Assembly (NCBI GenBank): GCA_018397065.1
Contig: JAGTRI010000007.1
Coordinates: forward strand, 1-53,533
From: Candidatus Bathyarchaeota archaeon
Lineage (GTDB): Archaea; Thermoproteota; Bathyarchaeia; Bathyarchaeales; DTEX01
Length of the DNA stretch: 53,533 nucleotides
Direction of reading: 5' to 3'
The translations under genes were made by a program, and so were the position numbers. Each line of letters opens with the position of its first letter. Position 1 is the first letter of the stretch. Below, piece by piece: positions 1 through 10,476 of this stretch. The notes beneath the pieces were generated by a model, which saw nothing but the letters and a program-made list of their open reading frames with translations, did not search any database and was not told where the DNA came from.

Positions 1-315
1 GTTAAGCTGATCGATGTGGACCTGTATTATGCCTTTAAGATGTTTAGCAGCATATTCAGATAGACCGACTCTGAAATTACCCTCAGGAGTTGCCTGCACC
101 CACGTATGTTTGGGAGAGTAAAGCACCATTTCTGGAGTTTCTAACATCTTATGTTTTTCAGTTAGAAGACCTTCTGTTCGCATGATTTCTTCAAGTCGTA
201 AGCGAATTGCTTCTGAGACGAACTCTGAAGTACTTCTGTATCGACCTGTTTTAATAGCTTTTTCAACTTCATTAGTTAATTCTTCTCTTATGCTTATCGT
301 TTTCCATTTACCCAT
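1..315 (-). CDS. Ribbon-helix-helix / glycine-cleavage-H-like fusion protein (3' end cut by window edge)
   Basis: The 105 codons present read through to the window edge, so the C-terminus is missing. Residues 1-45 form a CopG/Arc-type ribbon-helix-helix DNA-binding domain (KTISIREEL, then RYRSTSEFVSEAIR). After a short linker, residues 65-105 match the start of an H-protein lipoyl domain: YSPKHTWV, then RVGLSEYAAKHL, which line up with YSKDWMWI and RIGITDYAQKQL of the complete H-protein in this same window (8717-9130). The lipoyl-lysine region lies beyond the edge and cannot be judged. The ATG is preceded by AGGAG and TATA-like sequence further upstream. Seen: both domains in one frame. Inferred: a transcription factor whose second domain senses or carries a lipoyl-type group, or a former H-protein reused as a ligand-binding module. 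Confidence 0.8.
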   Translation of the reverse strand, partial: MGKWKTISIREELTNEVEKAIKTGRYRSTSEFVSEAIRLRLEEIMRTEGLLTEKHKMLETPEMVLYSPKHTWVQATPEGNFRVGLSEYAAKHLKGIIQVHIDQLN

Positions 316-555
316 TCTTTTTCAGCTCCTATTAAGTTTGATCTATATATACGTTAAATGTGTAATATATACATAGTGTTTATACAATTAGAATTAGTAA
401 ATACTATATTTATGCTAGACTGGCGGCGAAGGAGATTGTTCAAAGAATAATACAATCCTTAGTTGAATGTAATACGCTTAAGATCAACATTAAAGAAAGA
501 ACGAAACTAATCCAGAAGATATAATAATAAATGCAAGACAAATATTGTAAATAAT

Positions 556-582: not shown

Positions 583-1659
583 TTGGAAGGAAGAAAAATA
601 CAAAAAGTTGGTTATTCAACAATGGCAGTGTCACTTCCAACAAAATGGGTCAAACAAAACAACATCAAACCCGGTGACATTGTTTTTCTTGTCCAAGAGA
701 AAGACGGCGCCTTAAAAGTTCTGCCAAGTCATAAGGCGCAGAGAGAAGAATCGGAAGAGTTTATAATTTACGCTGATGCTTGCAAGGAACAAGGTATGCT
801 TAAGAGGATAATAATAGGTAGCTACTTACTTGGACATGACGTTATTAGGATAACATCATCTACTAGAATTGAAAAAACACATATCGATGAAGTTAGAGAG
901 GTTATTCCTAAACTCATCGGGCTTGGAATATTGGAAGAAACATCAAACAGGATTCTGCTTCAATGCTCTATTGATCCATCAAAATTCAAGCTAGACATGC
1001 TCATTAGACGATTATCAATAATATCAGCAACAATCCTATCAGAGACAATGCAATCGCTGTTTGATAATAACAAATCTTTAGCTGAAGAAGCAATCAGCAG
1101 AGAAGAAGGCGCAAACACAATATATTTTTTAGCTGTACGTTTACTTATTTTAGCGCAGGCAAAACCTGAAATTGCTGAACAAATAGGCATTGAGGATATT
1201 GTCCTAATTCCAGCTACTCGTCTAATTCTACAGTGTTTAGAGCTAATTGCCGACTATTCGCAGGATATAGCCAAAAAAGTTATTCTTTTACAATCCAATG
1301 AGAAAACATTGTCTCAAGATGTCATTCAAAGAATATATCATCTTGGGGAGCTAGTTTTAACTGTTTTTCAGAAAGCTATAGACTGCGCTTTCACTAGGAA
1401 TCTTGAAATTGCCAACAACTTATTGCAAATAAGCGACGATATATATGTCGAAACAGAGAGACTTATTCGTGAACTGCCAGCAGTTCCATACTTAAGAGCC
1501 ATTGTATCTTCATTAAACAAAATATCTGATATGGGTGCAATCATAGCTGAACTTGCGATTAATGGAGCATTAAGAGAACCTAATAAGTATGTGGAAAACA
1601 TTGTAAAATCGGTGAAACATGAACGAATAATACCACTGCAAGCTAAGAAAGGTAAATAA
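583..1659 (+). CDS. AbrB-PhoU fusion regulator (archaeal PhoU-like)
   Basis: The protein has 358 aa. Residues 1-45 are a SpoVT/AbrB swapped-hairpin DNA-binding domain (RKIQKVG, AVSLPTKWVKQ, IKPGDIVFLV). The rest is helical with two PhoU-type repeats, including the acidic pattern SDDIYVETERLIREL. Such fusions are widespread in archaea and usually annotated as phosphate uptake regulators, but no pst transporter genes are visible here, so the ligand is uncertain. The start is TTG at 583: no ATG, GTG or TTG lies upstream in frame, and starting at the internal ATG (622) would delete the first AbrB strand that the paralogue at 47736 keeps. No clear SD is seen. The gene faces away from the RHH fusion gene. 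Confidence 0.8.
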   Translation: MEGRKIQKVGYSTMAVSLPTKWVKQNNIKPGDIVFLVQEKDGALKVLPSHKAQREESEEFIIYADACKEQGMLKRIIIGSYLLGHDVIRITSSTRIEKTHIDEVREVIPKLIGLGILEETSNRILLQCSIDPSKFKLDMLIRRLSIISATILSETMQSLFDNNKSLAEEAISREEGANTIYFLAVRLLILAQAKPEIAEQIGIEDIVLIPATRLILQCLELIADYSQDIAKKVILLQSNEKTLSQDVIQRIYHLGELVLTVFQKAIDCAFTRNLEIANNLLQISDDIYVETERLIRELPAVPYLRAIVSSLNKISDMGAIIAELAINGALREPNKYVENIVKSVKHERIIPLQAKKGK

Positions 1660-2236: not shown

Positions 2237-3112
2237 TCATCCTATTTTGTTTAGGATGCTGTCTATTTTTATCTTATGAAATTCCAAGGCTAGTTCTTTT
2301 ACATCAACTCCGAGTGCTAGGCTTAGAAGTTCAGAGTAATGAAGAATAGGTAAATTGTGTTCTTCTTGGTACGTTGACTTCATGAGCACTTGACCTAAAT
2401 CTAACGTAAGGTAACAAAATGGACAAATAGTAACGATGCAGTCTGCCCCTGCTTTAGATGCGTTTATGATTTTTTCTCTAGCAATGGCTAAGGCAATATC
2501 ATCAGCATAGCCTCTTAGCAGTCCGCCGCAACATTTTTGTTTATTTCTGTACCAGATGCTTTTGGCTCCCAATGCTTCTATGAGCTCATCGTAAGCATGC
2601 GGATGTTCCGTGTCGTCAAACTTAAGAATTTTGCTTGGTCTTAATAGATGGCATCCTGAAAACGACGCTACTCTCAAGTTACCCATCTTTCTAGCTATAT
2701 TTGCTTTAATTTTTTCTTTTCCTACCTCTTCTGATAAGACTTGAAGGTAGTGCTTAACTTCTATGCTGCCTTTGAATTCCTTTCCAGCTTCTGCAAGAAT
2801 TCCGTTAACTTTTGCTTTTAATGGTTCATTCTGTTTTAGCGTTTCGTTAGCTACTGTTAATGACTCAAAGCAGCCGCTACACAAAGTTATCATGTCAAGA
2901 TCAGCTTCTTCAGATAAACAAATGTTATACGCTGCAATCGCAAGGCTTGTTTCCAAGTCCAAAGATTGCACAGGAGGAGGAGCACAACACGTCATGCCTT
3001 CTAAATCCACTAGATCAATGTCAAGTCTACTGAGTGCTTTTCTAGCTGAAACCTCATAGTTAGGTAAACGTGCGGGAATTGTGCATCCTAAAAACAAAGA
3101 ATAGCTAGTCAC
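2237..3112 (-). CDS. hdrB: Heterodisulfide reductase subunit B (CCG-domain protein)
   Basis: The protein has 291 aa and two CCG domains: C10, C42-C43, C78/C81, and C154, C194-C195, C230/C233. These bind the two noncubane [4Fe-4S] clusters at the disulfide-reducing site of HdrB. HdrB works with HdrC and HdrA to reduce a heterodisulfide (CoM-S-S-CoB in methanogens; the substrate in non-methanogens is unknown). The start is GTG, overlapping the hdrC stop (GTGA), with an ideal AAGGAGG seven bases upstream. It is the last gene of the five-gene mvhG-mvhA-hdrA-hdrC-hdrB operon. All canonical cysteines are present, so the active site looks intact. Confidence 0.95.
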   Translation of the reverse strand: MTSYSLFLGCTIPARLPNYEVSARKALSRLDIDLVDLEGMTCCAPPPVQSLDLETSLAIAAYNICLSEEADLDMITLCSGCFESLTVANETLKQNEPLKAKVNGILAEAGKEFKGSIEVKHYLQVLSEEVGKEKIKANIARKMGNLRVASFSGCHLLRPSKILKFDDTEHPHAYDELIEALGAKSIWYRNKQKCCGGLLRGYADDIALAIAREKIINASKAGADCIVTICPFCYLTLDLGQVLMKSTYQEEHNLPILHYSELLSLALGVDVKELALEFHKIKIDSILNKIG

Positions 3113-3618
3113 GATTCAACCTCCTTTTTCAACAGTAGTTTGTCAAATCCGGTTACAGCCAAAATTTTTCTTAAAGCCTCAGTACCAATGGTTTTTAGAG
3201 GAGGCAACCCAATTTGTTCCCTTTTTCTTTCAATAAATTTCGAAACAGGGACGATTCTGCCGTCGTTCATCAAGGCGAAAGCGAACTCCGAGTATATTTT
3301 TGGTAAATGGCCCTCTTTAGCAGCAATGTTCCGTAAAGCGAAAAAGACATCGACAAGTTCAACCATCTGGGGGCATCGTTCCTGACAGTTGTAACATGAA
3401 CTGCACAACCATATTGCGTTGCTCTGAAACACTTCTTGTCTTTCACCAAGAAGAACAAGTCGGAAAATCTCTCTTGGATTAAACTTTTCTGTTGTCTTTG
3501 CAACTGGGCAACTGCTCGCACAAGTTCCACATTGATAACATAGCATTACAGTTTCTCCGCCATATCTACTTGCAACCTCCTTAGAAAACGGAACATTGAA
3601 TTCCTTAGTTTCTGTCAT
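3109..3618 (-). CDS. hdrC: Heterodisulfide reductase subunit C
   Basis: The protein has 169 aa and two [4Fe-4S] motifs, C27/C30/C33/C37P and C72/C75/C78/C82P. HdrC passes electrons from HdrA to the catalytic HdrB. The ATG is preceded by GGTGA with six bases of spacing, located just past the hdrA stop. The end overlaps hdrB by four bases. Nothing is truncated and the length is usual for HdrC. Confidence 0.94.
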   Translation of the reverse strand: MTETKEFNVPFSKEVASRYGGETVMLCYQCGTCASSCPVAKTTEKFNPREIFRLVLLGERQEVFQSNAIWLCSSCYNCQERCPQMVELVDVFFALRNIAAKEGHLPKIYSEFAFALMNDGRIVPVSKFIERKREQIGLPPLKTIGTEALRKILAVTGFDKLLLKKEVES

Positions 3619-3634: not shown

Positions 3635-6055
3635 TCAAACCTCTTTCGAAAACCTTAGCGGTCCAAGTTTTTCCAGTCTCCCAGTCATTGCACATGCAGC
3701 CTCTGCGAATTTGTCACCTTCAACGAAGATTGTGTTGAAAAGCTCAACTCTTTCAGGCTCTATGCCATATTCCTTGAGCAGTGTTTTTGCTGCATCGATT
3801 CTCTTTTCAACCATCTTTATTCCCTCTTCATGGTGGCAGCCGTCACTCATACATCCTACTACCATAACGCCTTGAGCTCCATTTTTAATTGCTGTAAGAA
3901 AGTGTTCGATGCGAAGATAGCCAGTACAAGGAACCTTGACAATTCTCACGTTGGTCGGATAATTTGACATGGTCATTCCTGCGGAGTCCACAGATGCACC
4001 GCCACATTCTGAGCAACAGAAAGCCAAAATGAGCGGTTTGTCCTGCCCATTTATCGATAGGATAGCCTTAGTTTGCGAAAGCAACTCACTTTGCTTGAAA
4101 TGTCTAAGGTCTATGGCATTTAGAGGGCATGTTCCAATGCAGATTCCGCATCCTTCACATAAGAGGTCTGAAACCTTTGCAACTACGTGTTTTTCATCGA
4201 TTTTCACCAGTTCAATTGCGTTATATGGACATGATACTGGACAAAATTCGCAGTCACCGCAATATTCCTCGTTCACTACAGCAGTTCTTTGGTCTTTGAC
4301 GATTTTGCCAGTATTAAGGAACTTAACAGCCTTGAGTGCTGCTGAATGAGCTTGAAGAGAGCTTGATGGGGCATCTTTTGGAAAAGTTGCTCCCCCACAA
4401 AGGAAGATTCCCCTCATTTTTGTTTCAGTAGGTCTTAACTTGGCATTGTACTCTTTGAAGAAGCCGTCTTTGTCTATATCTATTTTTAAAATTTCAGCCA
4501 GGGTCTGTGTATCTTCAGACGGCACCATAGCTGTGGCAAGAATAACAAGATCAGTCTCTAGTTCTAAGAACCTTCTTAAAAGAGAGTCCTCAACGTCAAC
4601 AATTAGCACATTTGATTCAGGATCATGCGAGATTTCTGTCGGTCTGCCTTTTATGAATTTTACTCCTAATTCTCTCGCTTTTTCATAGTATTCTTCGTGT
4701 TCCCGTCCTGTTGTCCTAATGTCTATGTAACATATTGAAACATCAATTTCTGGGAAAACTGTTTTAATCATTATAGCATGTTTAAGGGATATCATACAAC
4801 AGATACTTGAGCAATAGTCATTCCACCTTTTGTCTCTGGACCCAACACATTGAACAAACACAATTCTTCTTGCAGGTTTTCCATCTGAGGGTCTAATGAT
4901 CCTCCCTCCAGTGGGACCAAAAGCATCGAGCATCCGCGCTAGCTCAAGATTAGTTATTACATCATGATATTCGCCATAATGGTATTCTTTGATGACCGAA
5001 GGGTCATATTCTTTAAAGCCTGTGGCCACAATTATTGCGCCCACATTGATTGTAGAAATTTCAGGCTTTTGGTCAAGTTCGACGGCTTTAGTAGGGCAGA
5101 CTTGGACACACTTTTCACATTCATGAAACTTACACGATTGTTCATCGATTACATAAGTTGGCGGATAAATATTGGGAACAATTGCGTAAATTGCCTTCCG
5201 GTTCATTAGGTTCGCATTATATTCATCTGGCACCTCGATTGGACAAACTTCTGAACAGAGGTTGCAGCTTATGCATTTTGTTTCATTAACGTACCTTGGC
5301 TTCTTTTCTAGTGTTATTCTGTAGTTGCCTGGCTGCCCCTCTACCTTAATGACTTGAGAATTTGTGTGAATTTTTAAGCCTGAAATGGCAGCGATTCCTG
5401 AACGATAAATACACTTTCTAGAGGTGTGCGTTATGGTCTTAACGTCTGAAGTAGGGGATTGTATACAAGCAGCACAGTCATCAGTTGGGAAAAATCGGCC
5501 GGCGCGGGCTGCTATTCCTCCTAGAAATGGCGCTTTCTCAATAAGATGAACCTCAAATCCTAAGTCAGCCAGGTCCTCAGCTGCTTGTATGCCGGATATT
5601 CCGCCTCCTATTACAAGAACAGATTTTAGGGCAGGAAACTCAAGCTTATGAATTGGTTCAAGGATTTTGGCTCTTTCAACGGAAGCTAAAAGCATCGCCT
5701 TAGCTTTTTCTGTTGCTTCTTTGGGAACGTTTCTGTGAGGCCAAGCGCAGTGGTTTTTTAGATCGATCACTTGTACAAAATTTTGGTTAAGACCAGCTGC
5801 CTCTGCTGCTTCGACAATCTTTATTTCGCTAAGTTTAGGCAAGCTTTCAGCGACAATAATTCTGTTTGCCTTTTGCTCTTTAATGGTTTTCACTATTGTT
5901 TGTAACCCCGAGCCTTTCCAAAACTCTGTTCCTCTTTCGACAACGGTAACATCTGGAATCTCTTTAAGAAAAGATATTATATTATCAAAGTCTAGAATTT
6001 TGGTCAATACCTTTCCGCAGTCAGATAAAAATACGCCGATTTTCAGGTTTTCCAT
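3635..6055 (-). CDS. hdrA: HdrA-MvhD fusion: FAD-containing heterodisulfide reductase A with C-terminal MvhD domain
   Basis: About 806 aa. The N-terminal 130 residues are the HdrA leading domain. A Rossmann FAD motif (VLVIGGGISGIQAAEDL) follows near residue 147, then ferredoxin-type clusters (CISCNLCSEVCP; CEKCVQVCP), a second pair (CGDCEFCPVSCP; CEGCGICIGTCP), and finally an MvhD/FlpD-like [2Fe-2S] domain (FCCSECGG, VPCTG, VVGCMSDGCHH). HdrA bifurcates electrons at its FAD. MvhD normally is a separate small protein docking the hydrogenase to HdrA; here it is fused, which explains why no mvhD gene lies in the operon. A GTG at 6064 overlaps the mvhA stop, but the ATG at 6055 has AGGTGA five bases upstream and is preferred. 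Confidence 0.93.
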   Translation of the reverse strand: MENLKIGVFLSDCGKVLTKILDFDNIISFLKEIPDVTVVERGTEFWKGSGLQTIVKTIKEQKANRIIVAESLPKLSEIKIVEAAEAAGLNQNFVQVIDLKNHCAWPHRNVPKEATEKAKAMLLASVERAKILEPIHKLEFPALKSVLVIGGGISGIQAAEDLADLGFEVHLIEKAPFLGGIAARAGRFFPTDDCAACIQSPTSDVKTITHTSRKCIYRSGIAAISGLKIHTNSQVIKVEGQPGNYRITLEKKPRYVNETKCISCNLCSEVCPIEVPDEYNANLMNRKAIYAIVPNIYPPTYVIDEQSCKFHECEKCVQVCPTKAVELDQKPEISTINVGAIIVATGFKEYDPSVIKEYHYGEYHDVITNLELARMLDAFGPTGGRIIRPSDGKPARRIVFVQCVGSRDKRWNDYCSSICCMISLKHAIMIKTVFPEIDVSICYIDIRTTGREHEEYYEKARELGVKFIKGRPTEISHDPESNVLIVDVEDSLLRRFLELETDLVILATAMVPSEDTQTLAEILKIDIDKDGFFKEYNAKLRPTETKMRGIFLCGGATFPKDAPSSSLQAHSAALKAVKFLNTGKIVKDQRTAVVNEEYCGDCEFCPVSCPYNAIELVKIDEKHVVAKVSDLLCEGCGICIGTCPLNAIDLRHFKQSELLSQTKAILSINGQDKPLILAFCCSECGGASVDSAGMTMSNYPTNVRIVKVPCTGYLRIEHFLTAIKNGAQGVMVVGCMSDGCHHEEGIKMVEKRIDAAKTLLKEYGIEPERVELFNTIFVEGDKFAEAACAMTGRLEKLGPLRFSKEV

Positions 6056-6060
6056 CTTTC

Positions 6061-7515
6061 TCACCTACTGATTTTTTTAAGTAATTGCTTTTTGTGATCG
6101 TAAATCTCGATTGTTAGGGGCATCTCGCCAAAAGCGTAATGGGTAGCACAAGCGAAACATGGGTCATAAGCTCTGAAGGCCATTTCAACTCTATTCAGTA
6201 GCCCGTCGTTGATTTCGCCTTTGTGAATAAGTCCTTTTGCTACTTTCTTAATTGAGATGCATATGCCCGGCGTATTGTGGGTTGTAGCAACAATTAGATT
6301 CACCTTCTTAGCTAAAGCCTTCTCATCCAAAATGTAGTGATGAATCAAGGTTCCTCTTGCTGCTTCAACTATTCCTACACCTTCTCCCGGTTTTCCTAGA
6401 TCGTTTCTTATGTTTCTACTTGTTATTTCTGGGTCTTTTGCCAGCTCCAGTCCTCGTTCCGCAGCATACAACAGCTCGATAAGTCTCGCCCAGTGGAAAG
6501 CTAGCGTAGAGTGAACGGGCTTTCCGCCTAGAGTGTTCATCATTTTTTCATATTCATCTTGAGCTAAAGGCGTCGCCATACCATCTGCGGCATTCAGCCT
6601 CGCTAAGGGTCCAACTCTGTAGATTCCGCTCTCGACGCCGTCAGTAAGGTTTCTCCAGCCTACGTTCTTTAGGTATGGCATCTTTACGTACGTCCAAGGC
6701 TCAACATGCTCCTCTATTACGTCTAAATATTCAGAAGGCGAGAATTTTACGTATTCATGTCCTTCAGGGTCAACAACCCGTATGTTTCCATCGTAAAAGT
6801 TCAATTTATTATTCTTATCAACAGTTCCCATATAGTATGTCCTAAGGGTATAGTGTTCGCTTTTAATCATTTCAACATAGTCTGAGTTTTTCAGAACGAT
6901 GTCACCGAAGACCTGTAATGTAAACTTAGCAAAGTCTATACAGCTCTCTAGCATCTTCACAATTTCCTGCTGCTCTTCCTTCGAAATAGACTTTGAAACC
7001 CCACCAGGTAACGCATTAACAGGATGCGTTGGTTTTCCGCCAATTATACCCGTAATTTTCTGTCCATAAGCTCTATGCTCTATTACTTTTTTGGCAATGT
7101 CAAGGCCTACTTTTTCTATAACCCCAAGTATGTTTCTTTTGGCAGCCGGAGCGTCTGGTCCAACAATGAAGTCTGGCCCTCCTAGGAAATAGAAGTGCAG
7201 AATATGATCGTAGATCATGTAGCCGCAATACTCGAGTTCCCTTAGTTTCTTAGCAGTCTCTGTAGGCTCTGTTTGAAAAGCCGCGTCAATAGCCTTCGCG
7301 CTTGCCATGTGATGGGCAACTGGGCAAACTCCGCAAATTCGTGTCGTTATTATGGGTAGGTCTTCAGCTCGTCTTCCTTCACAGAATTTCTCGAATCCTC
7401 TGAGTTCTGGAACCTGCAAATACGCATCTTCGACTTCTTCTTTGTCGTTTAGAAATATTATGATTTTTCCGTGACCTTCTAGCCTCGTGATTGGATCTAT
7501 AACTACCTCTTTCAT
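6061..7515 (-). CDS. mvhA: F420-non-reducing [NiFe] hydrogenase large subunit (MvhA)
   Basis: The protein has 484 aa. Both nickel-binding motifs are intact: the N-terminal RICGVCPVAH (C61, C64, H68) and the C-terminal DPCFACATH (residues 451-459). Twenty-five residues follow the final His. The protein oxidises H2 and passes electrons through MvhG to the MvhD domain of HdrA. Its ATG overlaps the mvhG stop (ATGA), so the two are translationally coupled. It belongs to the cytoplasmic group 3 hydrogenases; no membrane anchor gene is nearby. Confidence 0.94.
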   Translation of the reverse strand: MKEVVIDPITRLEGHGKIIIFLNDKEEVEDAYLQVPELRGFEKFCEGRRAEDLPIITTRICGVCPVAHHMASAKAIDAAFQTEPTETAKKLRELEYCGYMIYDHILHFYFLGGPDFIVGPDAPAAKRNILGVIEKVGLDIAKKVIEHRAYGQKITGIIGGKPTHPVNALPGGVSKSISKEEQQEIVKMLESCIDFAKFTLQVFGDIVLKNSDYVEMIKSEHYTLRTYYMGTVDKNNKLNFYDGNIRVVDPEGHEYVKFSPSEYLDVIEEHVEPWTYVKMPYLKNVGWRNLTDGVESGIYRVGPLARLNAADGMATPLAQDEYEKMMNTLGGKPVHSTLAFHWARLIELLYAAERGLELAKDPEITSRNIRNDLGKPGEGVGIVEAARGTLIHHYILDEKALAKKVNLIVATTHNTPGICISIKKVAKGLIHKGEINDGLLNRVEMAFRAYDPCFACATHYAFGEMPLTIEIYDHKKQLLKKISR

Positions 7516-8450
7516 TCCTTGATTTTCCTCCTTAAAATTGAGTTGGCGAGAGAATACTTGTAGAACGTTCCTACTGGGTCAGCTGCTTGGCTCAAAACTT
7601 TAGGATCAGCAGCAACAGAGGCTACTGCATTTAGCATGGCAGCGCCTTGGTCAGAAGATTGTGGACCAGGACCTCCACATCCAGTGCATGGTACGTTCAC
7701 TTTTAGGCATTGGGCGCCACAACCTGCCCTAGTAGCGGGTCCCATGCATACTACGCCTTGATCCCAGAAACACGTGATTTTATCGTCTTCAATCTCATAG
7801 ATGCGTTTGATGTTCGAGATTTTTCTGTCTTTCTTCTCTCTTGGACATTCGTCGCAAACTGATTTGTTTGGAAGAAAACTTGACCCTTTTGGTGGAAGCT
7901 TATTGTTAAGAATTATTTCAAAAGCATTTGCGATACATGCAACTGGCGGCGGGCAGCCCGAAATAAAGTAGTCGACATCAACTACATGGGATAATGGTTT
8001 CACGGTATCATAGAAAACTGGAAGTTCAAGTTCCTTATCGTTAACCTTCACTTTATTTTGCGGGAAAATAGATGCTGGGTTTATTGTTGATGGTGTTTCA
8101 ATATAAACTCGTTTAAAAATGGATTCTTTGTTCCAAAGATTTGCAAGCCCTACGACACACCCATCACAAGCGCATGATCCGAATGCTATCAAAATTTTTG
8201 ACTTTTGTCTTAAAAGTTTAGCCATTTTTTCGTTTTCTGAATTTCTTATTGCCCCATTGAAAAAACAAAAATCTATGCTCTTATCCGGCATTGCTTGTAT
8301 GTTCTTGTATTTGGTGTCAAGTGCCACGGGCCAAAAAACGATGTCCACAGCTGCAGCGACATCAAGAATCTTTTCGTTTACGTCAAGAACTGCTATTTCG
8401 CAACCGCCACAACTGGCTGACCAATAAAGAGCAAGTTTTGGCTTTTGCAT
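7512..8450 (-). CDS. mvhG: F420-non-reducing hydrogenase small subunit (MvhG)
   Basis: The protein has 312 aa. The proximal-cluster motif is at the N-terminus (SASCGGCE, C14/C17), with further cysteines in GSCACDGC, SGCPPP, CDECPRE and the terminal CMGPATRAGCGAQC and PCTGCGGP segments, giving three Fe-S clusters. There is no twin-arginine signal, consistent with a cytoplasmic enzyme. It is the first gene of the operon: GGTGA lies six bases before the ATG and a TATA-like element sits about 55 nt upstream. Confidence 0.94.
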   Translation of the reverse strand: MQKPKLALYWSASCGGCEIAVLDVNEKILDVAAAVDIVFWPVALDTKYKNIQAMPDKSIDFCFFNGAIRNSENEKMAKLLRQKSKILIAFGSCACDGCVVGLANLWNKESIFKRVYIETPSTINPASIFPQNKVKVNDKELELPVFYDTVKPLSHVVDVDYFISGCPPPVACIANAFEIILNNKLPPKGSSFLPNKSVCDECPREKKDRKISNIKRIYEIEDDKITCFWDQGVVCMGPATRAGCGAQCLKVNVPCTGCGGPGPQSSDQGAAMLNAVASVAADPKVLSQAADPVGTFYKYSLANSILRRKIKE

Positions 8451-8514: not shown

Positions 8515-8716
8515 ACTTCTAATTACAACATCACACATTTAAGCCTTAGCTGAATCTCATTCGGCATTTTCGCTGGGAGTTGCTGTGAAATTGATTGTCC
8601 GATTAAAGCATCCATGTGTGATGTGGCGGTTGCAGGCGGATTTGGTGAATAAAAAAGATATGAGTTTAATTTAATATAGGAAGACAGAGATTAAATTTCA
8701 TTTCAAGGTGATAGAA

Positions 8717-9130
8717 TTGAAGGTTGAAGGATACGAAGTTCCAGAAGGTTTATACTATTCAAAGGACTGGATGTGGATCAAGGTAGAGGACGGAAAGGTT
8801 CGAATTGGTATAACTGACTATGCACAGAAGCAGCTAAACGAGGTTGTTTTCGCTGAGCTCCCAAAAGTAGGGGACGAAGTAGTAAAAGGAGAACCATTCG
8901 GCACAGTTGAGTCGGTTAAATCCGTTTCTGACCTTGTTGCGCCGGTCAGTGGCAAAGTTCTTGAAGTCAACAGCGAAGTTAGCAGTACACCTGGAACCCT
9001 AAACGAGGATCCATACAATAAGGGTTGGATACTGGTTGTTTCGCCAACGAACTTGGAGGAAGACCTTAAGGCATTAATGACCTTTGAGCAGGCAGTTGAG
9101 TGGCACAAAGAACTTGCTAAGGAAAGTTAG
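8717..9130 (+). CDS. gcvH: Glycine cleavage system H-like lipoyl protein
   Basis: About 137 aa, a full H-protein fold. The lipoyl-lysine signature is TVESVKSVSDLVAPVSG, with the modified Lys in ESVK. It carries lipoate as a swinging arm. No gcvP or gcvT is visible in the window; the partner encoded next is an FAD/NAD disulfide oxidoreductase, so it may serve a redox role rather than glycine cleavage. A GTG at 8708 is the longest start, but it lies inside the SD AAGGTGAT; the TTG at 8717 has proper spacing and is preferred. A promoter-like TTTAATTTAATATA is found about 45 nt upstream. It stands divergent to the mvh-hdr operon. Confidence 0.88.
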   Translation: MKVEGYEVPEGLYYSKDWMWIKVEDGKVRIGITDYAQKQLNEVVFAELPKVGDEVVKGEPFGTVESVKSVSDLVAPVSGKVLEVNSEVSSTPGTLNEDPYNKGWILVVSPTNLEEDLKALMTFEQAVEWHKELAKES

Positions 9131-9135
9131 GTGAT

Positions 9136-10476
9136 ATGCAAAAGAAAATTGTGATTGTTGGAGCAAACGCTGCAGGTGTTGATGCCGCTGTTGCGGCTCG
9201 AAAAACGGATAGAGAAGCTGAAATTACGCTGCTAACTAAGGACAGATACTATACTTATTCCAGATGTGGGCTTCCATTTGTTTTAGGTGGACACATCGAA
9301 TCTTTCGAGAACCTAGTTGTCTATCCGCCAAATTTCTTTAAAGTTAACAGGATGGATTTGCGTCTTGAGACCACTGCAACTAGCATTGATACTAAATCTA
9401 AGACTGTTGAGGCACTGTCAAATGACGGAACAAGCGAAACGTTTGAGTATGATAAACTTGTTCTTGCAACTGGCGCAACTCCGTTCAGGCTTCCTATTGA
9501 GGGAATTGATAAACAAGGTGTCTACACGCTTCACACTTTAAGCGACGGCTTGAAATTGGCTGAAGCCATGAAGACTGCTAAGTCAGCTGTCGTGATAGGT
9601 CCAGGTCTTGTGGGGTTAGAAGCTACAGAGGCGTTTGTTGAGCGTGGAATAAAGACCACTGTGGTTGAAATGTTGCCCACGGTTCTTCCTAGGCTTCTCG
9701 ATCCTGACATGTCAAGTGATGTGCAGAGAAAGTTTGAGGAAAGCGGAGTAACTTTTGTTCTCGGAAAATCCGCAAACGCAATTCTAGGCGACAATAAAGT
9801 AAAAGGTGTGTCAGTTGGCGGAGAAGAAATTCCAGCCGACATTGTTTTGAACGCAGCAGGTGTTAGACCAAACACTGAATTAGCCCAAAAAGCAGGCATC
9901 GCTATTGGTGAAACCCGCGGCATCAAGACGAACAGTCGGATGCAGACAAGCGACGAGAACATTTATGCAGCTGGAGACTGCGCGGAGACAATCCATCTTG
10001 TTACAGGAAAGCCAGCTTTACCCCTTTTAGGTTCAGCTGCAGTGAAGATGGGTAAGGTGGCTGGTATAAACGCTGCTGGCGGAGACGCAGTTTATCCTGG
10101 AACCCTTTTTTCGTGGGTTTCACGCGTTTTCCATCTTGATGTTGGCGGCGTCGGGGTTACAGAGTTTTGGGCAAAACAGATCGGCATGGACGTTGTTGTT
10201 GGTAAAATAACCAGCAAGACAAGAGCTTCGTATTTTCCAGGAGGCTTGCCTTTAAAGGTTAAAATCTTAGTTGAAAAGAACACTAGACGGGTTGTAGGCG
10301 GCCAAATAGTTGGCGGTGAAGAAGTAACCCAACGAATTAACATACTTTCCTTGGCGATCCAGAACCGCATGAACATTGACGACCTCGCTAAGGCTGACAC
10401 TTGTTATGCGCCATCAGTTTGTGAGGCTTGGGAGCCAATAGTTCTAGCTGCAGAAATTGCCCAAAGAAGACTTTAG
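9136..10476 (+). CDS. FAD/NAD-dependent disulfide oxidoreductase (CoA-disulfide reductase / NADH oxidase family)
   Basis: The protein has 446 aa. It has an N-terminal FAD motif (IVIVGANAAGVDAAVAA), the single redox cysteine of the class III family in YSRCGLPF near residue 43, a central NAD(P) motif (VVIGPGLVGLEA), an FAD-contact motif (IYAAGDCAE) and a C-terminal dimerisation domain. Family members use one cysteine with CoA or a small thiol. The ATG follows the H-protein stop by five bases, with an SD overlapping the junction, so the two are co-transcribed. That linkage suggests it oxidises or reduces the lipoyl group of the H-protein, or couples it to NAD(P)H. This is inference; the family also includes CoA-disulfide reductases and polysulfide reductases. 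Confidence 0.82.
   Translation: MQKKIVIVGANAAGVDAAVAARKTDREAEITLLTKDRYYTYSRCGLPFVLGGHIESFENLVVYPPNFFKVNRMDLRLETTATSIDTKSKTVEALSNDGTSETFEYDKLVLATGATPFRLPIEGIDKQGVYTLHTLSDGLKLAEAMKTAKSAVVIGPGLVGLEATEAFVERGIKTTVVEMLPTVLPRLLDPDMSSDVQRKFEESGVTFVLGKSANAILGDNKVKGVSVGGEEIPADIVLNAAGVRPNTELAQKAGIAIGETRGIKTNSRMQTSDENIYAAGDCAETIHLVTGKPALPLLGSAAVKMGKVAGINAAGGDAVYPGTLFSWVSRVFHLDVGGVGVTEFWAKQIGMDVVVGKITSKTRASYFPGGLPLKVKILVEKNTRRVVGGQIVGGEEVTQRINILSLAIQNRMNIDDLAKADTCYAPSVCEAWEPIVLAAEIAQRRL

Follow-up and report, generated by a model that had tools for sequence, protein, structure and literature searches.

A ribbon-helix-helix (RHH) DNA-binding protein fused to an H-protein-like domain that has lost the lipoyl lysine probably serves, in one order of Bathyarchaeia, as a local autoregulating transcription factor for Hdr and hydrogenase genes, with the non-lipoylated H-like module binding a signal or a partner. 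The gene lies at the edge of the 53,533-nucleotide stretch of DNA analysed here (the window). Only its first 105 codons are present (positions 1–315, minus strand, ATG at 315); the open end of the frame is the end of the contig (G000:C44), and the 3′ part lies beyond it. A ribosome-binding-site-like AGGAGCT is found at 324–330 on the same strand, where most homologues have AAGGAGG. Residues 1–45 (181–315, minus strand; WKTISIREEL...STSEFVSEAIRLRLEE) constitute the RHH domain, matching Pfam RHH_1 (E = 1.2e-3, residues 6–43) and ParD (1.1e-3); S30, F32 and A36 of this domain do not vary among 44 full-length fusions. Residues 65–105 (1–123, minus strand) correspond to positions 2–39 of the GCV_H profile (E = 3e-4, residues 65–102) and include the H-x-W motif; the lipoyl-hairpin part falls outside the window. 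All three matches of the truncated frame are slightly below the cut-offs.

That these matches are not due to chance follows from a complete homologue of 195 amino acids (L033:8342-8929) in 'Candidatus Bathyarchaeota archaeon' QZM_B1_bin_12_1, which belongs to the same genus and is 94% identical over the common 105 residues. The full-length protein matches GcvH models of NCBIfam at 3e-33 and, by sequence, the pea H-protein 1dxm of the PDB at 4.6e-22. The initial annotation had proposed that an RHH domain is joined in one frame to an H-protein-type domain and that the latter aligns with a complete H-protein encoded further along the window. Both statements were borne out: the L033 homologue is 37% identical to the H-protein at 8717–9130, and altogether 44 distinct full-length fusions were recovered, all from a single order of Bathyarchaeia. 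Comparison of the window gene with L033 gave dN of 0.027 and dS of 0.48 (dN/dS about 0.06), indicative of purifying selection and thus of a maintained protein. The window gene is cut by a contig end, which could point to a frame joined by an assembly error. Since a 94%-identical complete homologue exists and the full-length fusion recurs in about 40 separate genomes, the chance that the fusion is an artefact is negligible.

Using a threshold of E < 1e-70, we searched the class and found full-length fusions confined to families f1, f6, f7 and f8 of the window's order. From the remainder of the class, and from 398 genomes drawn from across the phylum, we obtained stand-alone GcvH-type matches and no fusion. 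No relatives came from viral contigs, and among the matches listed for plasmids and phages there was only ordinary GcvH, the phage matches extending over the GcvH part only. One match on an Arthrobacter plasmid (H2) that spanned both domains turned out to be an ordinary GcvH of 128 amino acids. In a tree of H-domains, 12 canonical GcvH proteins form one clade (100/100) separate from all fusions. Another clade (100/99) comprises subtype B of the fusions that occur as tandem copies, mostly with ETWWF or ESWWF motifs; in tandem genomes the B copy is located immediately upstream of the A copy. Near a contig start in genome G062, an H-like ORF with a degenerate ETWNF motif (L032:238-723), whose listed frame has no RHH part, is perhaps a form that has been truncated or separated. 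We found nothing relevant in the literature searched on fusions of RHH with H-protein or lipoyl domains, and no published precedent for an RHH protein with an H-protein-like sensor module.

The C-terminal part of the full-length fusion is a complete H-protein-like domain. It shares with GcvH (PF01597, TIGR00527) a complete H-fold profile match, the H-x-W motif, the NEDPY..GW core and, in most members, the length of the hairpin. Positions G84, P129, G132, N138, P145, P152 and W157 of the fold core are invariant in the 44 fusions. It differs from GcvH in having an N-terminal RHH domain, in scoring below the GcvH equivalog cut-offs and, above all, at the lipoyl site. The alignment through the hairpin is ungapped and places fusion residue 121 opposite K63 of the pea protein, the lipoyl lysine. 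This lysine is kept in 12 of 12 stand-alone GcvH proteins, whereas the fusions have methionine (33), tryptophan (8), proline (2) or leucine (1) and never lysine (0/44). They are therefore not lipoylatable at the canonical site. The preceding residue 120 is tryptophan in all 44 fusions and the following residue is phenylalanine in 42, so that most of them carry E(T/S)W(M/W)F in place of canonical ES(V/I)K; the adjacent V-E-L-P strand of the H-protein is likewise replaced. Judged from the alignment, the lipoyl-hairpin face of the fusion is rebuilt on a retained fold and is not a product of decay. The earlier suggestion of a lipoyl-type or H-protein-like sensor thus stands as far as the H-protein-type domain is concerned and fails as to lipoyl, the lysine sought at the ESVK-like position being absent throughout. 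An AlphaFold2 model built from a three-row alignment had a pLDDT of 53.5, too poor to use, and the exposure of the W-M/W-F tip is accordingly deduced from the alignment.

The retained fold core could also be explained if the H-like domain were a decoy or docking module for enzymes of lipoyl metabolism or for the lipoylated H-protein, coupling lipoylation to the hydrogenase and Hdr genes. The presence of an LplA-type ligase in 21 of 21 genomes tested agrees with this explanation, which we nevertheless consider doubtful: the lipoyl-hairpin face and the adjacent ELP strand are rebuilt, and several genomes with the fusion have no match to the glycine-cleavage P-protein (G000, which is the genome of the window, G001, G004, G008 and G012, the first two being incomplete). 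A physical link between the fusion and gcvH is not conserved either. In genomes with large contigs the two genes are far apart: in G082 they lie on one contig at 945 kb and 632 kb, respectively, and in G098 they are at 143 kb and 577 kb. The fusion is unlikely to be tied to glycine cleavage itself. At 8708–10476 the window carries a canonical gcvH gene (lysine kept, WMW instead of HEW) immediately followed by a gene for a flavoprotein similar to CoA-disulfide reductase or NADH oxidase. The product of this gcvH may be a lipoyl carrier that acts outside glycine cleavage, in a genome where no P-protein was detected. A connection between GcvH-like proteins and Hdr-type genes has been described for the sHdr sulfur-oxidation system, where the lipoate-binding proteins LbpA are genetically tied to Hdr-type genes, are lipoylated and have a role in metabolism (PMC6067878). 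Unlike LbpA, the fusion has no lipoyl lysine, contains a DNA-binding domain and is located in HdrABC/hydrogenase clusters rather than in sHdr clusters.

The gene divergent from the fusion in the window (583–1659, plus strand) encodes a protein with AbrB/MazE and PhoU domains (Pfam PhoU 4e-14, MazE 6.6e-9). Such archaeal proteins are likely regulators too, with domains unrelated to those of the fusion. Beyond this gene lies, in the window's genus, an HdrABC-hydrogenase set that is transcribed in the same direction as the fusion. In the window it comprises genes for an HdrB-like protein with CCG domains (2237–3112), an HdrC-like protein with Fer4 (3109–3618), HdrA with a C-terminal MvhD/FlpD domain (3635–6064), the large subunit of [NiFe]-hydrogenase (6061–7515, PF00374) and the small subunit (Oxidored_q6, 7512–8450), all on the minus strand; the assignment of the HdrB-like gene comes from Pfam matches of the L033 orthologue. 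A small ORF downstream of the AbrB-PhoU gene (1748–2176), whose C-terminal part looks Hsp20-like, is kept at 12 of 31 loci. A small membrane protein resembling DUF2061 is encoded in or near the fusion/AbrB-PhoU region of some genomes (L121:3311-3511 and the long intergenic regions of L044 and L045).

The AbrB-PhoU family is the most constant neighbour of the fusion, present at 26 of the 31 loci whose context was compared (these, like the palindrome counts below, come from genomes of common ancestry and are not independent) and divergent from it in nearly all. Two types of context can be distinguished. In the first, the fusion is divergent from AbrB-PhoU and is followed by a GltD-like gene, HdrA, HdrB and hydrogenase genes; in the second, it is followed by TauE, a small conserved protein, NuoE/F/G-like genes and hydrogenase genes. 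In L033, TauE comes after the fusion. The initial annotation had suggested that the fusion possibly links lipoyl or redox state to the expression of the nearby Hdr and H-protein genes: adjacency to Hdr is kept across the order, and linkage to gcvH (8708–9130 in the window) is not general. The phyletic profile of NiFe-hydrogenase is uninformative, since the enzyme is found in 212 of 257 genomes. With ParD among the top profile matches to its RHH part, the fusion might be taken for a ParD-like antitoxin of a toxin-antitoxin pair. Gene context disfavours this, as no toxin gene adjoins the fusion in the neighbourhoods examined and the association with Hdr/hydrogenase clusters is constant, and we regard an antitoxin role as very improbable.

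The region between the fusion and AbrB-PhoU contains a candidate operator, the palindrome TAGTAWWTACTA. We scanned 43 genomes of the window's order, nearly all of which have the fusion, and found 16 exact matches, at most one per genome. Eleven of these are in the fusion/AbrB-PhoU intergenic region, four are within ORFs, and one (G045) is upstream of a related RHH gene with a Cys-rich tail, divergent from an HdrA-like gene. The sites are positioned about 75–80 bp upstream of the fusion start and 12–21 bp upstream of the AbrB-PhoU start. Both are present in long intergenic regions (181–526 bp), at −76 to −81 and −12 to −20, respectively, while short ones (about 106–112 bp) usually have one shared site. 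In the window, candidate operator 1 (TAGTAAATACTA, 395–406), the sole exact match in this genome, precedes the start of the fusion by 80 bp, a position that is fixed in relatives. Candidate operator 2 (TAGTAAATACTT, 555–566, one mismatch) is 16 bp upstream of the start of the AbrB-PhoU ORF. The promoter of the fusion probably has its TATA element at 363–374 (minus strand, ATGTATATATTA), an assignment made by position and AT content; the element is conserved in homologues. With up to two mismatches allowed, the background frequency of the palindrome is 0.13 per kb. At two mismatches there is no enrichment genome-wide or across the window as a whole, and hence no sign of a large regulon. In about one third of 34 intergenic regions, mostly those of one f1 genus and some f8 genera, the palindrome is degenerate or unrecognisable. 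Single-strand DNA folding of the intergenic region was not better than that of shuffled sequences.

The position of the palindrome so close to the AbrB-PhoU start codon, together with the constancy of this neighbour, is what one would expect if the AbrB-PhoU protein controlled the palindrome and the locus, with the fusion being an accessory factor or anti-repressor that contacts AbrB-PhoU or the Hdr complex. A sister family of RHH proteins speaks against this arrangement. Its members have a short Cys-rich tail (YTC...CPMFGWF...GC..KKxCxWFVG) and are encoded at L114:5695-6054 (G045), L115:1261-1620 (G042), L116:2678-3037 (G081) and in L030 (G054). The palindrome occurs 70–85 bp upstream of three of these four genes, a distance similar to that at the fusion; the match is exact in G045 and has two mismatches in G042 and G081. 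In G045 and G081 the neighbours observed are Hdr genes; the stretch read there revealed no AbrB-PhoU gene. The presence of the palindrome at such loci favours the RHH protein as the binder, and we consider control by AbrB-PhoU possible but unlikely. A different tail is found in G056 (L037/L029), where an RHH domain joined to DUF2096_N is encoded at the equivalent locus, divergent from AbrB-PhoU and with HdrA downstream; this represents a swap of the sensor domain at the same locus. Together with the Cys-rich tails encoded beside other Hdr genes, it suggests that the tail of the fusion is an exchangeable input module.

In NikR-type one-component regulators, an N-terminal RHH domain is followed by a C-terminal regulatory module, which in NikR is an ACT-like nickel domain; these proteins bind palindromic operators and have an autoregulatory location. 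The fusion appears similar in its N-terminal RHH domain and in the candidate palindromic operator in its own promoter region. It differs from NikR in that its C-terminal module is GCV_H-like, not ACT-like and nickel-binding, and no logic of a metal site is seen. The NikR model matched the L033 fusion with an E-value of 0.03, in the RHH region only.

If the fusion is a local autoregulator, its N-terminal RHH domain would bind, as a dimer, the TAGTAWWTACTA palindromes of the divergent promoter region from which the fusion itself is expressed. On the AbrB-PhoU side, with the site 12–21 bp from the start codon, such binding would be expected to cause repression. On the fusion side, a protein bound about 75–80 bp from the start, next to the TATA element on its upstream side, could bring about activation or autoregulation. 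The fusion would thereby set the expression of its own operon and, with it, of the surrounding GltD-like/HdrABC/[NiFe]-hydrogenase or TauE/NuoEFG/hydrogenase genes. The C-terminal H-fold with its conserved hydrophobic E(T/S)W(M/W)F tip is probably the module that binds a signal or a partner, and it may serve in oligomerisation as well.

A more speculative proposal, for which we would claim little confidence, is that the fusion represents a new class of transcription factor, whose dead H-protein directly reads a lipoyl/dithiol or electron-carrier state and so couples thiol redox to the expression of electron-bifurcating hydrogenase and Hdr genes. Its W-M/W-F tip might contact a lipoylated protein, the lipoate ligase or a subunit of Hdr. 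The fusion would then belong to a larger family of RHH regulators linked to Hdr, whose exchangeable sensor tails are of the H-like A and B, Cys-rich or DUF2096 type.

In the literature searched we found no study of how Bathyarchaeia regulate their Hdr and hydrogenase genes. The fusion and the TAGTAWWTACTA palindrome provide a concrete, testable candidate regulator-operator pair for these genes. The H-protein fold, which ordinarily carries a lipoyl group, was apparently reused as a regulatory module with its cofactor site lost, and the sensing of redox or lipoyl state by such a module, if true, would be a new sensing principle.
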